Shown here: piece by piece, positions 31,745 through 41,387 of the stretch | How positions within the stretch are numbered: the stretch's first letter is position 1 | Layout of the letters: every line of letters begins with the position of its first letter | DNA from: Gordonibacter sp. 28C | GTDB lineage: Bacteria; Actinomycetota; Coriobacteriia; Coriobacteriales; Eggerthellaceae | Length of the DNA: 64,000 nucleotides | Assembly: GCF_003339845.1 (NCBI RefSeq) | Contig: NZ_PPTR01000002.1 | Span: 248,001-312,000 of the forward strand | Reading direction: 5' to 3' | Notes under the pieces: model-generated | The model's input: the letters and a program-made list of their open reading frames with translations, nothing else | What the model was told of the DNA's origin: nothing | The model's database searches: none | Position numbers and translations under genes: made by a program

Positions 31745-31962
31745 GGTCGCCCTTTCGTCCTCATGCGGCCGCCCCGACCCTCCGGGCGCGGCAAACCCGT
31801 TTTCTCGTACCCGACCATGATACCGTCAGATTCAGCCGAATCGCCCCGAAAACAGAGCAAGAACCGGAGCCGCCGGCCCCAACCGCGCGGCGCCGGCCGG
31901 AATCGCCCCGCAGGAGCGGGCTGCCGCCCCTGCGATCGCCCCGCTCAGGCAACGCCCAGCTT

Positions 31963-32541
31963 CTAGGCGAACAAAGGGCGCCCGATGAAACCCGACACAC
32001 CGTTCGCCACGAGGGTCTGCATCATTTCGAGGAATTCCTCGGGCGGCAGGTCCCTGCCGTTCCCGCCCCACTGGCTCACGAGGCCGAACATCGCGTGGAA
32101 CATGAACGCGGCAAGGTACTCGACGTTCGGCTCGTCCTCCGACACGCCCGTGACCTGCAAGAAGAACGGCATCATGGTCCGCTTCACCTTCACGAGGAAC
32201 CGCGGGTCGCCCTTGTCGCCCAGCAGCACGAGCACCTCCTCGTTGTGCGTGGCGAACAGCTGCGCGCACCGCATCGAGAACTCGTGGAGGCTGCGCGGGA
32301 TCCCTGCGCCGACGATGGCCGCCGCATTGCGCTCGAGCTCGTCCAGCAGCTCGTCCTCCAGCTGATCGAGCAGGTCGTACACGTCGGTGAAGTACTCGTA
32401 GAACGTTCCGCGGTTGTAGCCGGCGTCCTTGGTCACCGCCCCCACCGTCACCTGCTCGATGCCGCCCTCGCGATACCGTTTCCAAAACGAGTCCATGAGC
32501 TTCTTGCGCGTCTGCGCCGTCTGCTCCGGCTGCTTCTTCAT
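31963..32541 (-). CDS. TetR-family regulator divergent from ABC exporter
   Basis: 192-residue repressor-type protein. The N-terminal helix-turn-helix is clear (about 24-55: IEQVTVGAVTKDAGYNRGTFYEYFTDVYDLLDQ), the rest is a variable ligand-binding helical bundle. It is transcribed away from a three-gene ABC-2 exporter operon, with 128 bases between start codons, and so probably controls that operon and itself. GGAGG lies 8 bases before the ATG. Two sites sharing CAAC/GTTG half-sites sit in the divergent region. Ligand unknown. Confidence 0.88.
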   Translation of the reverse strand: MKKQPEQTAQTRKKLMDSFWKRYREGGIEQVTVGAVTKDAGYNRGTFYEYFTDVYDLLDQLEDELLDELERNAAAIVGAGIPRSLHEFSMRCAQLFATHNEEVLVLLGDKGDPRFLVKVKRTMMPFFLQVTGVSEDEPNVEYLAAFMFHAMFGLVSQWGGNGRDLPPEEFLEMMQTLVANGVSGFIGRPLFA

Positions 32542-32570
32542 GCCATGCGCCTCCGATCGTCCGACATTCG

Positions 32571-32634
32571 CAACGAAGTTGTCGGTTGATGTACGGGCTT
32601 GCGCCCCCTATGCTTTTATCACACAACACGTTGT
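32571..32634. promoter_or_regulatory. Two candidate TetR operators
   Basis: CAACGAAGTTG (32571-32581) and ACAACACGTTGT (32623-32634) are palindromes with related CAAC/GTTG arms, 41 bases apart, in the divergent region between the TetR gene and the ABC operon. Confidence 0.5.
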
Positions 32635-32669
32635 TGGATAGTTTACCACAAGCGTAAGGGGTGATGCGC

Positions 32670-33581
32670 ATGCCCGAGATAGCGATTTCCCATCTGACGA
32701 AGGACTACGGCCACGGCCGCGGCGTGTTCGACGTGTCCATCGAGGTGGAACGCGGGGAGTGCTTCGGCTTCCTCGGCCCGAACGGCGCCGGCAAGACCAC
32801 CACCATCCGCCACCTCATGGGCTTCTCCCGCCCGCAAGCAGGCACGACCGCCATCCTCGGGCAGGATTGTTGGACGCGCTCCGCCGAGCTGCAGCGCAGC
32901 GTGGGCTACCTGCCGGGCGAGATCGCACTGCCCGCCGGCATGACCGGCACGGCGTTCCTGCGCATGATGGAGCGGATGCGCGGCGTGCGCAACGACGAGC
33001 ATCTGAAGCTGCTGCTCGACACGTTCGACCTGGACCCGAGCATCTCCACGCGCGAGATGAGCCTGGGCGTGAAGCGCAAGATGGCCGTGGTCACCGCGTT
33101 CATGCACGATCCGGACATCCTGATCCTCGACGAGCCCACGAGCGGCCTCGACCCCGTCATGCAGCAGGTGTTCATCGACTACGTGCGATGGGAGAAAGGA
33201 CGCGGCAAAACCGTCTTCCTCTCTTCGCACCTATTCAACGAGGTCGACGCCACCTGCGACCGCATCGCCATCATCAAAGACGGGCGCATCGTGTCGCAGT
33301 TCGAGACGAACGAGTTCCACCAGCGCGGCGAGAGGTTCTACCAGGTGTCCTTCGCAAGCGACAACGCCTATCGCGCGTTCACCGCCCTGCCCTACGAGTT
33401 CGCCGCGCAGAGCCCCGAACGGCGCCGGGCGAAGATCCACGTGAACGACGCCCAGGCGAACCGGCTGATCGCCGACCTCGCCGACACGGACGTGACCGAC
33501 TTCGAGGAGATCCCCTTCACCCTGGAGGACTACTTCATGCAGTTCTACCGGGAAGACCGCCAATACGAGGAGGTGAGGTAG
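32670..33581 (+). CDS. ABC transporter ATPase (first of two paralogues)
   Basis: 303-residue cytosolic ATPase for an ABC-2 type exporter. Walker A GPNGAGKTTT, a non-standard signature MSLGVKRKMAV, Walker B ILILDEPTSGLDP and H-loop FLSSHLFNEV are present, followed by a C-terminal domain of about 90 residues as in BcrA/CcmA-like drug exporters. ATG 32670 is chosen because AAGGGG lies 8 bases upstream; an upstream GTG/ATG pair at 32661-32664 has poor spacing. It shares TKDYGHGRGVFD with the next gene, evidence of duplication. Its stop abuts the next start without a gap. Confidence 0.9.
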   Translation: MPEIAISHLTKDYGHGRGVFDVSIEVERGECFGFLGPNGAGKTTTIRHLMGFSRPQAGTTAILGQDCWTRSAELQRSVGYLPGEIALPAGMTGTAFLRMMERMRGVRNDEHLKLLLDTFDLDPSISTREMSLGVKRKMAVVTAFMHDPDILILDEPTSGLDPVMQQVFIDYVRWEKGRGKTVFLSSHLFNEVDATCDRIAIIKDGRIVSQFETNEFHQRGERFYQVSFASDNAYRAFTALPYEFAAQSPERRRAKIHVNDAQANRLIADLADTDVTDFEEIPFTLEDYFMQFYREDRQYEEVR

Positions 33582-34484
33582 ATGGAAGACGCCGTCATCC
33601 GCGTGGACGGCCTGACCAAGGACTACGGCCACGGTCGCGGCGTGTTCGACCTCGACCTGCGCGTCAAGCGGGGCGAGGTGTTCGGCTACGTGGGCACGAA
33701 CGGCTCCGGCAAAACCACCACCATCCGCCACCTCATGGGCTTCATCAAGCCCGACGCGGGCAGCACGTCGATCTTGGGGATGGACTCGTGGCGCGATTCC
33801 ACGCGCATCATGAACCACGTGAGCTACGTGCCGGGCGAGATCGCCTTCCCCAGCCTGCCCACCGGCACCGCCTTCCTGAAATCGCAGGCCGAGTTCCTGG
33901 GCGTGACCGATTTCACGTACCTGAACCACGTGGTGAAGCTGCTGCAGCTGGACCCGTCGGCCAACCTCAAGCGCATGTCGAAGGGCATGAAGCAGAAGAC
34001 GGCCATCGCCGCCGCGCTCATGGGCGACAAGGAGATCCTCGTGCTGGACGAGCCCACCACCGGCCTGGACCCGCTCATGCGCGACACGTTCCTCGACCTC
34101 GTGCGCGCCGAGAAGGCGAAGGGACGCACCGTGTTCATGTCGAGCCACATCTTCGAGGAGATCGAGGAAGTGTGCGACCGCGTGGCCATGATCAGGGACG
34201 GCAAGATCATCGAGGTGTTCGACCTGCGCGAGCTGCGAAACGGCGACGCGAGGACCTTCCATGTCGCGTTCGCGTCGCGCAGCGAAGCCGGGCGCTTCGC
34301 AGGCGCGTGGAAACCCGTGAAGTCCGTCGACGAAGCTGCGGCCACCGTCACCGTCGAGGTGTCGGCGAAGGACCTCAACCACCTGCTGCGCACGCTGAAA
34401 GCCTATTCGGTGGCCTCGTTGAGCGAAGAGCATTTCACGCTGGAGCAGCACTTCAAGAACGTGTACCTGAAGGGAGCGAACTAA
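33582..34484 (+). CDS. ABC transporter ATPase (second of two paralogues)
   Basis: 300-residue ATPase, paralogous to the preceding gene and probably its heterodimer partner. Walker A GTNGSGKTTT, signature MSKGMKQKTAI, Walker B ILVLDEPTTGLDP and H-loop FMSSHIFEEI are intact. Both copies have the S-x-G-x-K-x-K form of the signature that is common in ABC-2 drug exporters. The ATG follows directly after the TAG of the upstream gene, whose last codons (GAGGAGGTGAGG) supply the ribosome site; one base separates its stop from the permease start. Confidence 0.9.
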   Translation: MEDAVIRVDGLTKDYGHGRGVFDLDLRVKRGEVFGYVGTNGSGKTTTIRHLMGFIKPDAGSTSILGMDSWRDSTRIMNHVSYVPGEIAFPSLPTGTAFLKSQAEFLGVTDFTYLNHVVKLLQLDPSANLKRMSKGMKQKTAIAAALMGDKEILVLDEPTTGLDPLMRDTFLDLVRAEKAKGRTVFMSSHIFEEIEEVCDRVAMIRDGKIIEVFDLRELRNGDARTFHVAFASRSEAGRFAGAWKPVKSVDEAAATVTVEVSAKDLNHLLRTLKAYSVASLSEEHFTLEQHFKNVYLKGAN

Positions 34485-34485
34485 C

Positions 34486-35691
34486 ATGGGCGCGAACACC
34501 AAGACGACGCGCTTCTTCTCGAAGCCTTTGATGAAGCAGACTTTCAAGTCCAACCTGGTGCTGGCCTTGGTCATCCTGGTCATCATGTGCGGCATGTGCG
34601 TGGTCATCAACTACGCGACGAACCTCATGGGTTCCGACAGCAAAAGCGAGCTGACCGCAGACGAGAAGACCGAGGCGCAGCAGGACTTCTACTCGTACCT
34701 GTACGCCATGGCCTCCTACGACGAGATGGCGCAGGCCGACCTGTCCTACGACGACTTCGCCAGCACGTCGGACAAGGCGCCCTACGAAACGCTGTTCGAT
34801 CTCATGAACAAGCAAGCCGACCTGGACCTGAGCGTCCAAGGGCTGCAAGACGCGGCGGTGCAGCTGGAGAAGTCCGACGTTCCGCTCGACACCTACGTCG
34901 AGCAGTTCGAGTACGTGTACGCGCTGGGCCAGGTGAAAGGCGTGTTCAGCGGCGACGACCTCGATATCGAGGACATGATGAACACCATGTTCGCCACCAT
35001 GGGCGTGTCCACCGACCTCATGGACACCATGGGCTCCATGGACAGCACGTCCATGCTCAACCAGATGTACTTCACGGTGATGGGGCTGCTGCCCATCCTG
35101 CTGCTCATCGTGATCGTTGCGAACTCGCTCGTGGCCGACAAGGTGGACAAGGGATCGATGGCCTACGTGCTGTCCACGCCCACGAAGCGCTCGGCCGTGG
35201 CCATCACCCAGGCGACCTACCTGATCGTGGTGCCGCTCGTCATCATCGGCATCGTGTGCTGCGTGCGCATCGGATCGTCGATCGCGCTGTTCGGCGAGGT
35301 GAACGTGGAGAAAACCGTCATGTTGTACGCGGGCATGTACGTTCTCGTCGAGGCGATCGCGGGCCTGTGCTATTTCGGCAGCTGCGTGTTCAGCCAGAGC
35401 AAGAAGTCCATGGCCTTCGGCGGCGGCCTCACCGTGTGGTTCTTCCTCGCATCGCTTCTGGGCATGTTCGGCTCCCAGAGCCTCGTCGACATGGGCATCG
35501 GCGTGGAGGCGCTCGGGGTGTTCAACAACCTCACGCTCATCGGGCTGTTCGACATCAACGCCATCGGCACCATCGGCTCGGGTGCCGTGGACTACGCCTT
35601 CGTGTGGAAGCTGGCCGTGCTGGCCGCCGTGGCCGTCGTCTGCTACGTCGCAGGCGCCATCCGCTTCCAGAAGAAGGACCTGCCGCTGTAA
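34486..35691 (+). CDS. ABC-2 type permease
   Basis: 401-residue membrane subunit of the exporter. One N-terminal helix (about 22-45) is followed by a large acidic extracytoplasmic region (about 50-200, Met- and Asp-rich) and then five to six helices (about 205-390). VADKVDKGSMAYVLSTPTKR is the typical ABC-2 cytosolic loop. Together with the two ATPases it would form an exporter for an unknown compound under control of the divergent TetR. GGGAG precedes the ATG inside the upstream gene's end. Confidence 0.88.
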   Translation: MGANTKTTRFFSKPLMKQTFKSNLVLALVILVIMCGMCVVINYATNLMGSDSKSELTADEKTEAQQDFYSYLYAMASYDEMAQADLSYDDFASTSDKAPYETLFDLMNKQADLDLSVQGLQDAAVQLEKSDVPLDTYVEQFEYVYALGQVKGVFSGDDLDIEDMMNTMFATMGVSTDLMDTMGSMDSTSMLNQMYFTVMGLLPILLLIVIVANSLVADKVDKGSMAYVLSTPTKRSAVAITQATYLIVVPLVIIGIVCCVRIGSSIALFGEVNVEKTVMLYAGMYVLVEAIAGLCYFGSCVFSQSKKSMAFGGGLTVWFFLASLLGMFGSQSLVDMGIGVEALGVFNNLTLIGLFDINAIGTIGSGAVDYAFVWKLAVLAAVAVVCYVAGAIRFQKKDLPL

Positions 35692-35700
35692 AGCGGCAGG
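35679..35700 (+). terminator. Hairpin over the permease stop codon
   Basis: Arms CCTGCCGCT and AGCGGCAGG with loop GTAA, which contains the stop codon bases. No T tract follows, so efficiency is doubtful. Confidence 0.5.
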
Positions 35701-35893
35701 CGGAGATATCTCGAGATGCGCTTGCGCGGCAAGCGCCCCGCTCATGCCGCGCAAGGTCGCCCGGAATGCCTCGCAAAGGGACAGTTCCCTTTCGAGGCGT
35801 TCCGGCTCAAGATCCTTCTCCGCTTGCACGCCCCTCCCGCAAGCGCGATAATCGAGTCTTCGATACCGTGCTCGACGAAGCAAGGAGACGCCC

Positions 35894-36544
35894 ATGAAGG
35901 TGCTCGCCGTCAACGGAAGCCCGCGCAAGAACAGGAACACGGCAACGCTTCTCGAAGCGGCCCTCGAAGGCGCGACGTCCGCCGGCGCGCAGACCGAGCT
36001 CGTGCACCTGAGCGACTTGAACTGCAAGGGCTGTGCGAGCTGCTTCGCCTGCAAGCTGAAGGACGGTCGGCTCGTCGGGCGCTGCGCCCTGCGCGACGAC
36101 CTCTCGCCCGTGCTCCAGCGCGCCATGGAAAGCGACGTGGTGATCTTGGGGTCGCCCATCTACCTGGGCGGCGTCACCGCCGCGACGAAGGCGTTCCTCG
36201 AACGCCTCGTGTTCCCGTGCCTGTCCTACGACGCGCCCGACCGCCGGTGCTTCGAGGGGCGCATCGCCACCGGCTTCGTTTACGCCATGGGCATGCCGCA
36301 CGACCGGGTGGAGGCAGCGGGCTACCCGCATCTGTTCGACGAGAACAAACGATATCTGGAGCTTCTGCGCGGTCCGTCCGCGTACGTGGTCTCGGCCGAC
36401 AACTACCAGTTCGACGACTACGCCCGCTACGCGGCCTCGAACTTCGACGAGCCGCACAAGGCCGCCGTTCGCGCCGAACGCTTCCCCCAAGAGTTGCAAG
36501 CCGCCCGTGACATGGCGGCGAGGCTGTGCGCGGTTTCCGCCTAA
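35894..36544 (+). CDS. NADPH-dependent FMN reductase/flavodoxin-like protein with Cys cluster
   Basis: 216-residue flavoprotein of the iron-sulfur-flavoprotein/NAD(P)H:FMN reductase superfamily. FMN phosphate-binding loop: NGSPRKNRNTATLL (7-20). SPIYLGGVTAATKAFLER forms the second flavin loop. Between them is an unusual Cys series C44-x2-C47-x2-C50-x2-C53 and C64. Archaeal-type Isf proteins bind a 4Fe-4S cluster with a compact Cys motif in the same place, so a cluster is possible here. It probably transfers electrons to quinones, metals or Fe-S partners. AAGGAG lies 6 bases before the ATG. Its stop overlaps the stop of the convergent LuxR gene by 4 bases. Confidence 0.82.
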   Translation: MKVLAVNGSPRKNRNTATLLEAALEGATSAGAQTELVHLSDLNCKGCASCFACKLKDGRLVGRCALRDDLSPVLQRAMESDVVILGSPIYLGGVTAATKAFLERLVFPCLSYDAPDRRCFEGRIATGFVYAMGMPHDRVEAAGYPHLFDENKRYLELLRGPSAYVVSADNYQFDDYARYAASNFDEPHKAAVRAERFPQELQAARDMAARLCAVSA

Positions 36545-37944
36545 TCGGCCTCGATGGATGAAACGTAGTCGATCAGCTTCTGTTGCGCGTGTATGTCCGT
36601 CTTGTTGTAGACATGGTAGATGTGAACGCGAGCCGTGTTCCTTGAAATGAACAGCTGCTTGCCTATGTATTCCGCCGTTCTGCCTTTGCACAACAGGAAA
36701 AGTATTTCGGCCTCGCGCTCGGTCAGCCCGCACTCGCCCCGAACGATGTCGCATTGCCGCCTCAAAAGCGCATCCGGCCCCTTGTCCGGAACGCCAACGG
36801 GCACTCCCTTGCCCGCATTCCCCTCGCCGTCCTCCCGTGCGAAGGGGGTGGCAAGGCTCGGTGTGAAAAATACGGCAGACACCACCAGCACCAATACAAC
36901 AGCCGCGTCGGCGTAGACGACGAGATCCTGGCTGCCTCCCACCGCCAGCCCCAAGGCAACGAGCGAACCCGCGAAGAAGCCCGCCAGAAGGGGAAGCAGG
37001 GCCCGCGAGATCACCGGCGTGTCCAAGTTGCCGATCTTGACGCACTGGCCGAAAGCCCACCCAAGGTTGCGCAGAAAGTAGAAGCCGAACAACCCCAGCA
37101 GCACGCCGTTGGCAACCGGTGCCAAGAACTCCGGCTCCACCATAATGCAGAGGAAGCAGCCGGCCGCCACCAACACCACCGCTTCGTTAACCAGCTTGTC
37201 GTTGCTCTTGCGCGGCAGCAACCCGGCAAGAACGACTCCCAGAGCCAACAGGGCAACAACAACCAGGCCGTTTGCCTCGTACTTCAGGGAGAAGGACGCC
37301 GTCATGCCGAACACGATGCCGTACAGGGCGTTGGCAAACGGAGCGCGCTTGTTGAAGCGCGCGAAAATGTTCACCAGGGGCTTGTCCTCATCCGCCTCGA
37401 TGTCCTTCGCCTCCGCAAGCTCCGCGCTTAAAAGCACCGCCCCCACGAAAGCCAGGATGACGAAGGGGACCACCACCTGCTCAACTGCCATCAGCGCAAA
37501 GCACGTCGCCAGCGAGAAAGCCGCCGCCACGCCGTGAACGCGCATCGGGCCGGACAGCACGTCCGAAAGAAAAAGCATCGCGACGATCACCGTCCAGCTC
37601 AAAGCGCCCGAAAGGGCGGCTGAGATAGCGGCGACCGCCAGATTTCCCGGCATCATGCGCAGGGAAACGAGCAGGGCAGCCATCAAAACGCCGAAGCACA
37701 GGCCGCACGCCATCGGGCATGTGCGCTCGATGTCGGTCAGCACTTGGGCAAGGCTGGGCAAGCTCAGCAGGAAGGCGGCCACGGCGAACCCGCCGGCAAA
37801 GCACGCCAGCAAGAAAACGTCCAGCAGCGGCGGCATTGCGATAGCCGAGGCGACAAGCAGGCACACGCACGTTCCCAAGCACCACGATAGGGCGCCGTGC
37901 AGCACCGCACGCGTGCCCGACACCACGGTTTTTCGCTCCCCCAT
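36541..37944 (-). CDS. Membrane-bound LuxR-family regulator
   Basis: 467 residues: about 12 predicted membrane helices (roughly 12-370), then a cytosolic LuxR helix-turn-helix (about 402-460: LTEREAEILFLLCKGRTAEYIGKQLF and RNTARVHIYHVYNKT). This architecture is expanded in Eggerthellaceae, where such proteins have been shown to act as substrate-responsive activators of neighbouring metabolic genes, including catechol dehydroxylases. Here it is the last gene of a minus-strand block with a membrane protein, an Fe-S protein and a molybdopterin enzyme, 97 bases after the former. It probably senses the enzyme's substrate or an exported product. Stop overlaps the convergent flavoprotein gene. Confidence 0.9.
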   Translation of the reverse strand: MGERKTVVSGTRAVLHGALSWCLGTCVCLLVASAIAMPPLLDVFLLACFAGGFAVAAFLLSLPSLAQVLTDIERTCPMACGLCFGVLMAALLVSLRMMPGNLAVAAISAALSGALSWTVIVAMLFLSDVLSGPMRVHGVAAAFSLATCFALMAVEQVVVPFVILAFVGAVLLSAELAEAKDIEADEDKPLVNIFARFNKRAPFANALYGIVFGMTASFSLKYEANGLVVVALLALGVVLAGLLPRKSNDKLVNEAVVLVAAGCFLCIMVEPEFLAPVANGVLLGLFGFYFLRNLGWAFGQCVKIGNLDTPVISRALLPLLAGFFAGSLVALGLAVGGSQDLVVYADAAVVLVLVVSAVFFTPSLATPFAREDGEGNAGKGVPVGVPDKGPDALLRRQCDIVRGECGLTEREAEILFLLCKGRTAEYIGKQLFISRNTARVHIYHVYNKTDIHAQQKLIDYVSSIEAD

Positions 37945-38041
37945 AGCTCTCCCTGCCCCTAAACGTCAGAAGCCTGCCCCATCGCGCGGACGGGGCAGGC
38001 GCGTTTACACGCTTATTCAGATAGTACCCAGAGCGAGACGA

Positions 38042-38593
38042 TCACGCAAATGCTTGATCGTCCTTCGATGCGCGAGGGCCGCCGTCCGGGGCGCCTCCTT
38101 GCGCGATCTTCCTCGGATCAAAACCGCTGACCTTCGCAGCTATCGCCGTCGACAGCGGAAGAACGATCAACACCAATACGAACACGCAGGGAAGCGCGAT
38201 GGGGTACACGTGGAGCCACGCGTCGATGGTGCCCATCAAGCCGAGCGCCTGAATGTTGTTCACCCAGCACAGAATCATGCTCAGAATCGTTGTGAACACC
38301 ACGTCGAATATCAGGGCGGTTATCAGGCTCGACGCAACCTTGTTGGTAATGCGCAGAGCGGCGACCGCTTTATTCGCCCAATTCGAGACGGGAAGGGCTT
38401 CGCCGATGAAGCAGGCTACGCAATATCCCGGAATGAACATCACGATAGAGTTCAACGGGGTGAAGATGGGCGCTTGCGGCGCGGCGGCCTGCGCGCTGCC
38501 CAAAATCAGGCATACGAAGAAAATCGTTATGACGAAGTTCACGACCATGTTCATAATACGACCGAAACCTGCAGGTCCTTGATAGTACGGCAT
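38042..38593 (-). CDS. Small membrane protein of the molybdoenzyme block (DUF2798-like)
   Basis: 183 residues with four predicted helices (about 15-35, 46-66, 92-112, 126-150) and a short charged C-terminus. The two halves look related (GRIMNMVVNFVITIFF and ASSLITALIFDVVFTTI), reminiscent of two DUF2798 repeats, but I am not certain of the family. It has no heme-ligating His pairs as in DmsC/NrfD, so a quinol-oxidising role is not supported. Position between the Fe-S subunit and the LuxR gene suggests transport or retention of substrate. AGAGG lies 6 bases before the ATG. Confidence 0.6.
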   Translation of the reverse strand: MPYYQGPAGFGRIMNMVVNFVITIFFVCLILGSAQAAAPQAPIFTPLNSIVMFIPGYCVACFIGEALPVSNWANKAVAALRITNKVASSLITALIFDVVFTTILSMILCWVNNIQALGLMGTIDAWLHVYPIALPCVFVLVLIVLPLSTAIAAKVSGFDPRKIAQGGAPDGGPRASKDDQAFA

Positions 38594-38652
38594 GTTATTC
38601 CTCTCTTCGGAAATACAGTAGGAACCCCGAGCGCTCTTGTGCGAAGTCGCTG

Positions 38653-38994
38653 CTATTTCTCAATCACGTAAAGGCATTGCTTGGCATCGGTAAGCCCCTT
38701 GGCCAACTCTTCCACCTCTCCGAACCGAAGGCAGTTCGCGAAGCAGTGCTTCACGCAGGTGGGCAGCTCCCCCTCGGAGGTGCGCGCGGCGCAGGCGTCG
38801 CATTGGTCCGTCGGCACCGGCAGGTACGAATGCTGCCATTTCTCGGCACCCCCCTTGTCCTCGTAAGGCCAAACGCCGATCTGGGTGACGACGATGCCGT
38901 TCTCCCCCACTTTCATGCCATGCTCGGTCTGGCAGGCAAGCTCGCAACCGTGGCAGCCGTAGCACCAGCGAGCATCGATAAGCAGTGCTTTCAT
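38653..38994 (-). CDS. Ferredoxin-like 4Fe-4S electron-transfer subunit
   Basis: 113-residue cytosolic protein related to DmsB/PhsB-type subunits but half their length. Nine cysteines fall in two groups: C11-x2-C14-x2-C17-x3-C21 (WCYGCHGCELAC) and C65-x2-C68 with C80-x3-C84-x3-C88. This allows two 4Fe-4S clusters instead of the four of DmsB. Nine bases separate its start from the stop of the molybdopterin gene upstream, so it is very probably that enzyme's electron donor or acceptor subunit. Confidence 0.85.
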   Translation of the reverse strand: MKALLIDARWCYGCHGCELACQTEHGMKVGENGIVVTQIGVWPYEDKGGAEKWQHSYLPVPTDQCDACAARTSEGELPTCVKHCFANCLRFGEVEELAKGLTDAKQCLYVIEK

Positions 38995-39003
38995 GGCTCT
39001 CTC

Positions 39004-41241
39004 CTATTCCTCGTACTTTCGGACGGCGCAGAGCTGCGCCTTGATGTTCGTGCCGAACCCGTGCTTTCCGCAGTCGTACTCGCACAGGTTGTTGACGTTC
39101 ACGTCCATGACCCCGTACAGGTCCTCGGGGTCGCCCTCGGGGAACCACCAGGCATGGTCGGTCTGGATGTTGCCCTCCATGATCTCGGGCGTCACGCGCA
39201 AGCGCATGTGGGCTTTGCCGTTGTTGTTGTAAAGCTCCACGATGTCGTTGTCTTTCACGCCGTATTTCTCCGCATCGGCGGGGTTCATCTGGGCAAGCGG
39301 CTCCTTCACGATAGCGCGCATGCGCGGCATGTTGCGATGCTCGGAGTGGAACGTGGTCCAGCGACGCACGCCCGTGGTAAGGATGAGCGGGTACTTCTCG
39401 TACAAGTCCGGCGTGGCCAGCGGGCCGGGACGCACTTCCTCGTAGTAAGGCAGCGGATCCTGCCCGATCGACTGGAACATGCCGCACCAAAGCTCGATGC
39501 GCCCGGTCGACGTGTTGAAGCCCGGCTGCCCGTCGGGACGCAGCAGGCCCTTTTCATACTTGCGGTACTGGAATGCGGGGAGAACCGGAGACACCTCGCA
39601 CAGTTCCTCGAAGGTGTATCCCGTGGGCTTGATCATCTCGGTGAACATCTCCTCGACCGTGTCCCACGGCCAACCTTTCGGGTTGAAGCGCTTGCCCAGC
39701 TCCAAGTTGATCTGCTGGTCGGATTTCGATTCGCCGCGCGGTTCGGTCACTTTGACCATGGCGGCGGCGCGCTGGGAGCCGGTCGTCAGAGCCACGCCGT
39801 TGCGCTCGGGGAACAGGCACACCGGCAGCACGACGTCGGCAAGCGCCATGGTCGTGGGCGTCATGTACGGAGTGACGTCGACGAAGAAGTCGAGCTTCTG
39901 GAAGGCCCTGAGCACCCGCTCGGGCTCCGGCGCCATGCAGCTGATGGGGTTCATCGTCTGGTTCCAGCAGGCATGCAGCTCGTAAGGCTCGCCCGACTCA
40001 AGAACCTTGAGCACCTCTTCCGATTCGGTGTACGGGGTGGCGAACGCGTACATGGGGTATTTTTTGATGCCGATCTTCTTGGCGAGCTGTTCCTGGCTGA
40101 TGAGCTCCCTGCCCCAGCCTCCGGCGTATCCGCCGGGGAGGATGTCGGTCGGCATGATCATGCCGCCGGGCACGTCGACGTTTCCCGTGATCTGGAACAC
40201 CGTCTGCATGGCATGCGCCGCCGGCACCGCTTCCGCATTGGACGAATCGGCCGCAAGACCCCATTGCAGGGCGGCCGGACCGTCTTCTACGATCATGCGG
40301 GTTGCCCGGACGATATCGTCTTCTGCAAGCCAGGTGATGGCGGCCACCTTTGAAAGCGGGTACTCCTTGGCGCGCTCCGCCAACTGCTCGAAGCCGTAGC
40401 ACCACTTATCGACGAAGTCCTTGTCGTACAGGTCGTTCTCGATAAGGTAGTTGATCATGCCCATGGCCAAGGCGCCGTCGGTGCCGGGACGCGGGCGCAG
40501 GACGAGGTCGGCTCGGGACGACAGCCAGGTGATCTTGGGATCGACGTTGATGAGCTTCGAGCCGCGCTTGAGGCATTCGACCATCCAGTACCCCATCACC
40601 CCGTCGGAGTTGGACACGAGCAGGTTCACGCCCACGTTGAAGATGACGCCGGGAGCGCGCCATTCAGGATTGTCGAAGCGGTCGACGAACTGCTGCGAGT
40701 AATCCGCCAGCCAAAAGCCGCCCAGCGTGCCGACCATGCCGGCGATGCGCGGCAGATAGCAGGAATCGCCCGATTGCCCGACGCCGCCGAAGTTGGGACT
40801 GCCGAACGACCAGGAAAGACGCGTGATGTAAGGCGTGATGTCCCGCCCGGTTCCCTGCTGGAATATCACGGATTCCGCGCCGTACTTCTCTTTGATGTCG
40901 TTGAAGGTCGCCTCGATGAGGTCGTATGCCTCGTCCCAGGTGATGCGCTCGAACTTGTCCTTGCCGCGATCTTCCCGCGCCCGCTTCAAGGGATAGAGCA
41001 AGCGGTCGTCTGCCGCCAGCGCATCGGGAACCGCGAAGCACCGCGCGCACAAACGGCCCTGGTTGAACGGAGTCGCCTCATCCCCTTCGATTTTCGTGAC
41101 GTTGCCTTGGTCGTCGGTGTGGATCTTGATGCCGCAGCCGTTGTGGCAGCCCGGCGCCGTCCAGGCGCTTGTGCGCGTTACCGTCTCCCCGTCTTTCCTC
41201 GTATGGAGCGGAAAGCCTTGTCCTGCCGCTATGGTTTCCAT
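39004..41241 (-). CDS. Molybdopterin-dependent oxidoreductase, DMSO-reductase superfamily
   Basis: 745-residue catalytic subunit binding bis-MGD. N-terminal Fe-S site: C32-x3-C36 and C65-x2-C68; the third Cys of the usual C-x3-C-x3-C is Ile40. FGSPNFGGVG is followed by Cys161, a plausible molybdenum ligand. Other family marks: ITWDEAYDLIEATFNDIKEKYG, NSDGVMGYWMVECLKRGSKLINVDPK, and the C-terminal molydopterin-binding domain with DNDIVELYNNNGKAHMRL. There is no twin-Arg signal, so it should be cytosolic. Size and the small Fe-S partner recall pyrogallol transhydroxylase, acetylene hydratase and the catechol dehydroxylases of Eggerthella. Substrate unknown. GGAAGG lies about 5 bases before the ATG; the frame's 42-codon extension is untranslated in my view. 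Confidence 0.88.
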   Translation of the reverse strand: METIAAGQGFPLHTRKDGETVTRTSAWTAPGCHNGCGIKIHTDDQGNVTKIEGDEATPFNQGRLCARCFAVPDALAADDRLLYPLKRAREDRGKDKFERITWDEAYDLIEATFNDIKEKYGAESVIFQQGTGRDITPYITRLSWSFGSPNFGGVGQSGDSCYLPRIAGMVGTLGGFWLADYSQQFVDRFDNPEWRAPGVIFNVGVNLLVSNSDGVMGYWMVECLKRGSKLINVDPKITWLSSRADLVLRPRPGTDGALAMGMINYLIENDLYDKDFVDKWCYGFEQLAERAKEYPLSKVAAITWLAEDDIVRATRMIVEDGPAALQWGLAADSSNAEAVPAAHAMQTVFQITGNVDVPGGMIMPTDILPGGYAGGWGRELISQEQLAKKIGIKKYPMYAFATPYTESEEVLKVLESGEPYELHACWNQTMNPISCMAPEPERVLRAFQKLDFFVDVTPYMTPTTMALADVVLPVCLFPERNGVALTTGSQRAAAMVKVTEPRGESKSDQQINLELGKRFNPKGWPWDTVEEMFTEMIKPTGYTFEELCEVSPVLPAFQYRKYEKGLLRPDGQPGFNTSTGRIELWCGMFQSIGQDPLPYYEEVRPGPLATPDLYEKYPLILTTGVRRWTTFHSEHRNMPRMRAIVKEPLAQMNPADAEKYGVKDNDIVELYNNNGKAHMRLRVTPEIMEGNIQTDHAWWFPEGDPEDLYGVMDVNVNNLCEYDCGKHGFGTNIKAQLCAVRKYEE

Positions 41242-41342: not shown

Positions 41343-41387
41343 AGGCAGGCTGCGGATAATGCTGCAAGCATTATCCGCAGCCTGCCT
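41343..41387. terminator. Strong 21-bp inverted repeat with T tract
   Basis: Perfect 21-bp arms (41343-41363 and 41367-41387) with loop GCA, and TTTTT from 41387 on the plus strand. It lies between the end of the helicase gene and the start of the molybdopterin gene, both on the minus strand, where the T tract is on the wrong side for them. It may still block helicase read-through, or act on plus-strand transcripts. Confidence 0.65.

Follow-up and report, generated by a model that had tools for sequence, protein, structure and literature searches.

Two subtypes of catechol dehydroxylase have been described, the Eggerthella-type and the Gordonibacter-type (PMC7028382, PMC11887054, PMC11585353, PMC11574389). 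The Eggerthella-type combines a large, Tat-exported alpha subunit with a four-cluster beta subunit and a membrane anchor (PMC7028382, PMC11887054, PMC11585353, PMC11574389). The Gordonibacter-type is a cytoplasmic alpha-beta enzyme, in which an alpha subunit of about 750-800 aa without a Tat signal is adjoined by a small Fe-S beta subunit (PMC11887054, PMC7028382). The nearest solved relative of catechol dehydroxylases is acetylene hydratase (PMC7028382), where Cys9, Cys12, Cys16 and Cys46 bind the cluster and Asp13 is essential (PMC12096430). The transmembrane LuxR regulators DadR, HcdR and CadR activate neighbouring enzyme genes on substrate (PMC9734109). Dehydroxylases that share a function cluster at about 72-75% identity (threshold from PMC11585353), and one survey counted 126 sequence clusters of such enzymes, most of them without an assigned substrate. 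As a rule, one enzyme of this kind stands for one particular molecule of the diet or the host that the gut flora alters.

The locus described here lies in a window of 64,000 nucleotides of Gordonibacter sp. 28C. Overall, its layout is ordinary and its occupant is unusually diverged; a conserved paralogue outside the window, which is free of Fe-S ligands, is the more surprising gene pair.

Layout of the gene block and its insertion site

The block consists of four intact consecutive ORFs on the minus strand (36541-41241), each preceded by a plausible ribosome-binding site (Table 1). An enzyme, an Fe-S subunit, a small membrane protein and a LuxR regulator thus follow each other on one strand, as the preliminary description had stated. 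The alpha and beta genes are separated by 9 bp. Co-transcription of the block including the LuxR gene, on the other hand, is doubtful: because the LuxR gene is preceded by a hairpin, whose stem measures 12 bp and whose U tract is weak, it may be transcribed separately from the upstream genes or only partly together with them. The inverted repeat upstream of alpha occurs once in the genome and is probably a terminator. A role as a repeated operator was rejected, given that the repeat is unique and that near-matches with three mismatches were no commoner than in the control. An Rfam and tRNA search of the 64-kb window gave no match.

Table 1. Positions of the features of the gene block and its surroundings within the window.
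Feature	Position	Strand	Basis or remark
Alpha subunit, bis-MGD molybdopterin enzyme, 745 aa, cytosolic	39004..41241	-	ORF, Pfam domains, alignment
Beta subunit, 2x[4Fe-4S] electron-transfer protein, 113 aa	38653..38994	-	ORF, cluster cysteines
Small 4-TM membrane protein, DUF2798 (PF11391), 183 aa	38042..38593	-	Pfam, hydropathy
Membrane LuxR regulator, 467 aa, about 11 TM + GerE	36541..37944	-	Pfam, hydropathy
Terminator-like hairpin, 12-bp stem, weak U tract	37966..38001, limits approximate	-	Between 4-TM gene and LuxR
Perfect inverted repeat, 20-21 bp, T tract on + strand	41343..41387		Upstream of alpha
Inserted/variable segment	36530..41516		Sister species G001: 64 bp at same place

Judged from the comparison with the sister species G001, the 5-kb cassette is either gained or differentially lost, because G001 carries only 64 bp at the same site between conserved flanking genes (helicase, 97% identical; FMN reductase, 91% identical). 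A search of the insertion edges for flanking direct repeats (8 bp or longer) found none. The adjoining ABC-transporter block (31824-35842), which codes for two ATPases and one permease, likewise has next to nothing corresponding to it at this site in G001, so this stretch of the chromosome is variable. The G+C content of the cassette is lower, at 61% against 65-69% (the helicase has 69%), and its third codon positions are coding-like (GC3 0.72-0.85). The species-specific insertion, the lower G+C content and the loss of many conserved residues (see below) would all suit an acquired gene set that is decaying or scarcely used; four open frames, a full set of metal ligands, good ribosome-binding sites and the GC3 values argue against decay, which we regard as quite improbable.

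A diverged member of a known clade

The alpha subunit contains the Pfam domains Fe4S4, Molybdopterin and Molydop_binding, and a sequence scan found neither a Tat motif nor a transmembrane segment in it. Given this size, the missing Tat signal and the small Fe-S beta subunit next door, the candidate is a member of the cytosolic two-subunit Gordonibacter-type catechol dehydroxylase clade and not a new system. The Eggerthella-type was rejected, since its combination of a Tat-exported large alpha subunit, a four-cluster beta subunit and a membrane anchor does not fit the candidate. The preliminary description had correctly linked this layout to substrate-induced catechol dehydroxylases with membrane LuxR sensors, and its short (745 residues), apparently cytosolic alpha subunit was confirmed. 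It went wrong in reading the length, the location and an altered motif as signs of a new kind of enzyme: they are ordinary Gordonibacter-type traits, found also in the 28 alpha genes of the family in this genome, and the label 'undescribed metabolic system' is not supported. A beta gene was recognised immediately downstream of 26 of these 28 alpha genes; within five genes, a LuxR gene was found at 15 or more of them and an MFS transporter gene at 16.

Two trees placed the candidate within an alpha subclade from Coriobacteriia (SH-aLRT 99; 100/98 in the careful tree), which is adjoined by a sequence from Anaerolineales (Chloroflexota). The wider, fully supported family also holds, in other branches, two enzymes of the urolithin (eam) cluster and a pair resembling Eldh. 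These anchors were assigned by synteny and not by accession numbers: the urolithin enzymes were recognised because an amidohydrolase, MFS genes and a LuxR lie next to them, the arrangement given in PMC12771579, and the adjacent pair, whose members are 76% identical to each other, fits (+)-Eldh1/2, which are adjacent genes with 74% identity (PMC11887054). No anchor enzyme falls in the candidate's own subclade, where none is tied to a measured reaction; the reaction of the candidate is therefore derived from the family.

Within this clade the candidate stands far apart. Neither a set of 149 relatives nor 398 genomes of the class, which presumably include the species from which all characterised enzymes come, contained an alpha protein with more than 55% identity. 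The best match in the named genomes was 54%, in a Coriobacteriia MAG; plasmid records gave matches of only 31%, and the viral contigs searched held no relatives. Since no genome searched contained a match above 55%, the candidate lies outside the 72-75% range of shared function, with 55% as its best identity in the 398 class genomes and presumably less than 72% to any enzyme with a known substrate. It deviates at 33 of the 213 positions fixed in the subclade (other members deviate at 0-22), including W203V, H218Y, D457T, P603V, W667I and W669E, and in the trees it forms the longest branch of its clade. The word 'orphan' used for the block earlier is thus right in the strict sense, as the genomes searched hold no relative of the alpha subunit above 55% identity and no orthologue of the sensor domain, and the sister species lacks the cassette at this site.

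How far the function has shifted with the sequence needs to be weighed carefully. The lost fixed residues and the orthologue-free sensor could mark a chemistry or substrate class other than catechol para-dehydroxylation, which we consider unlikely. A related reading is that a catechol dehydroxylase scaffold was neofunctionalised into a reductase or dehydroxylase of a non-catechol, for example a 21-hydroxy corticoid steroid or a drug. This would agree with the longest branch and the largest number of lost conserved positions in the clade, and a corticoid-dehydroxylating Mo enzyme of Eggerthella/Gordonibacter has been reported (PMC11574389). However, all ligand and core residues are retained, and the divergence by itself may stem from an unsampled donor lineage; we assign this reading a low probability as well. 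The substrate itself may well be new, as had been supposed; what points to this is the lack of an alpha orthologue above 55% identity, of clade residues and of an MFS gene, the unique sensor and the inserted cassette, and not the length, location or motif of the alpha subunit.

The Fe-S region was also examined by alignment with acetylene hydratase. Its relevant residues are A29/C32/C36/C65/C68. C32, C36 and C65 align with Cys12, Cys16 and Cys46 of acetylene hydratase, Ala29 stands at Cys9, Cys68 is an extra cysteine, and His33 occupies the position of Asp13. An altered motif had been noted earlier with Ile in place of the third Cys and a CxxC at its end. The CxxC (C65/C68) is real; the Ile replacement is not, and it is the first Cys that is missing (Ala29). 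Nor is the alteration a special trait, because [G/A/P]PGCHxGCG...GRLCxRC and Cys161 are shared throughout the clade: in almost every comparator, position 29 is Gly, Ala or Pro, position 33 is His, and positions 32, 36, 65, 68 and 161 are Cys. Cys161 aligns with the metal ligand Cys141 of acetylene hydratase, which agrees with its earlier naming as a candidate metal ligand, and it is predicted to bind Mo (or W). All family Fe-S and Mo ligands are retained in the candidate. Across the family, the alpha subunits of the Gordonibacter-type show a nearly invariant CX3C...CX2C together with His at the Asp13 position. One review described Gordonibacter enzymes as lacking an Fe-S motif; from the alignment we propose that a rearranged ligand set (C32, C36, C65, C68) replaces the standard motif in these alpha subunits.

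In a sequence search against solved proteins, acetylene hydratase was the best match of alpha (E 1e-70), followed by thiosulfate reductase (E 1e-46). An AlphaFold model built with 17 aligned sequences reached a pLDDT of 85.6 and a pTM of 0.89, with residues 26-35 at low confidence; the model from the single sequence was useless at pLDDT 33. With this predicted fold, acetylene hydratase again came out closest (Z 39.9). The enzyme of Pelobacter acetylenicus (2e7z) resembles the model in fold, over 685 residues at 2.4 A, and in its Cys metal ligand. It differs in having 29.5% identity to the candidate in the tree alignment, in Asp13 (His33 here), in the first Fe-S Cys, which is absent here while Cys68 is new, and in the beta partner that the candidate has. 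Identity with acetylene hydratase was rejected on Asp13 and on Cys9 of the Cys9/12/16/46 cluster, neither of which is kept. More broadly, a non-redox enzyme, be it a hydratase or a transhydroxylase, would fit this closest solved relative, but the replacement of the essential Asp13 and the coupled two-cluster electron-transfer subunit speak against it, and the non-redox reading is very improbable. Pyrogallol-phloroglucinol transhydroxylase in particular was rejected: its structure 4v4c matched over only 200 residues (E 2e-10) and ranked far below acetylene hydratase both by sequence and in Foldseek.

Partner proteins, sensor and proposed function

Each of the cluster cysteines of the beta subunit (C11,14,17,21 and C65,68,80,84) occurs in 68-70 of the 70 related beta subunits compared. 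The third gene is less typical. The 4-TM DUF2798 protein fills the slot normally taken by an MFS transporter, and the cassette contains no MFS transporter, a component that is usual but not defining for the family. The 4-TM protein seems to be an accessory that recurs, and it may serve transport: a distant relative (hhalign E 1e-5, probability 82%) sits in the same slot beside a subclade member of the L052 type, which occurs in several genera, and a closer relative follows an alpha-beta pair in G003. Other DUF2798 relatives (L145, L146, L150-L153; L114:2901-3443) were found beside a carbon-nitrogen hydrolase and an MFS gene, EamA transporters, or an S15 peptidase. Such relatives are often near LuxR regulators. 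In Coriobacteriia, DUF2798 proteins may generally act as small membrane accessories; a literature search on it yielded nothing useful.

The LuxR protein has 11 TM segments predicted by hydropathy and a GerE domain at 407-460 (E 5e-11). The enzyme genes therefore do have their own membrane LuxR beside them, with about 11 TM helices and a DNA-binding domain, as had been claimed; such a neighbour is common in the family, though not universal. No orthologue of its sensor (TM) domain was found in 398 genomes, which leaves no relative from which its inducer could be predicted.

Taken together, we favour the view that the cassette encodes an acquired or retained, substrate-induced reductive dehydroxylase (Mo or W) of the Gordonibacter-type, and by analogy its substrate is probably a catechol- or polyhydroxylated aromatic from diet or host. 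We counted against this view that no enzyme of the candidate's own subclade is tied to a measured reaction, as well as the 33 of 213 changed fixed positions, the absent MFS transporter and the position of the LuxR gene behind a hairpin. In the proposed scheme, the 11-TM LuxR would sense the substrate at the membrane and, once activated, would switch on the alpha-beta-4TM operon in the manner of DadR, HcdR and CadR. The 4-TM protein could serve in substrate entry, in product exit or as a membrane tether of the complex. Electrons would pass from a low-potential donor to the two [4Fe-4S] clusters of beta, then probably to one alpha cluster (C32/C36/C65/C68), and from there to the Mo-bis-MGD centre on Cys161. 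At this Mo (or W) centre the aromatic substrate would be reductively dehydroxylated and so used as an electron acceptor. The cassette is compact and species-specific and has its own sensor, which makes it easy to move and test.

Unusual paralogues and comparison with known systems

The same genome contains a paralogous alpha-beta pair (770 and 119 aa) at L064:6044-8736 on the minus strand, corresponding to contig C12:150043-152735. Its alpha subunit carries C32S, C36Y, C65N and C68N and retains the Mo-ligand Cys. In its beta subunit CxxCxxCxxxC reads FSGNHAAEIAC, and the second cysteine set is gone. Alpha orthologues (L155-L183) are 96-98% identical in the genus and 71-95% identical in roughly 25 other genomes drawn from many genera, and the same replacements were seen in all orthologues. 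This molybdoenzyme dimer, with no Fe-S relay, is highly unusual and would be expected either to perform non-redox chemistry or to receive electrons directly. The joint loss of all four alpha cysteines and nearly every beta cluster cysteine suggests that the two sets belong to one electron chain in the family, and it is indirect evidence for the rearranged ligand set proposed above. The conserved pair makes the need for electron transfer in the family directly testable. It could be the published Gp Hcdh, which the literature gives as the most transcribed catechol dehydroxylase of the human gut: it has 770 aa, is spread over genera and is absent from Eggerthella-like genomes, although length alone does not single it out, as a reading of 770 aa is possible for several paralogues. 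In another paralogue (L058:6157-8496, minus strand), Asp replaces Cys32 (PPGDHPVGCG) beside a normal beta subunit with eight cysteines; an Asp-ligated cluster is possible there.

Among the known systems, the Eggerthella-type enzymes (Dadh, El Hcdh, Cadh) share with the candidate the bis-MGD family, control by TM-LuxR proteins and the respiratory use of catechols. The 12-TM LuxR family of E. lenta (DadR, HcdR, CadR) shares the arrangement of 10-12 TM helices followed by GerE in a gene adjoining the enzyme, whereas the sensor part of the candidate's regulator has no orthologue in the 398 genomes. The closest likeness is to the Gordonibacter-type enzymes (Dodh, Gp Hcdh, Gs Vadh, (-)-Eddh, (+)-Eldh1/2, Eadh1-3): a cytosolic alpha subunit of about 750-770 aa without a Tat signal, a small beta subunit directly downstream, a LuxR-type regulator nearby and acetylene hydratase as the nearest solved protein. 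From these the candidate differs by an identity of at most 55% in the genomes searched, by the absent MFS transporter and by the greatest divergence in its subclade.
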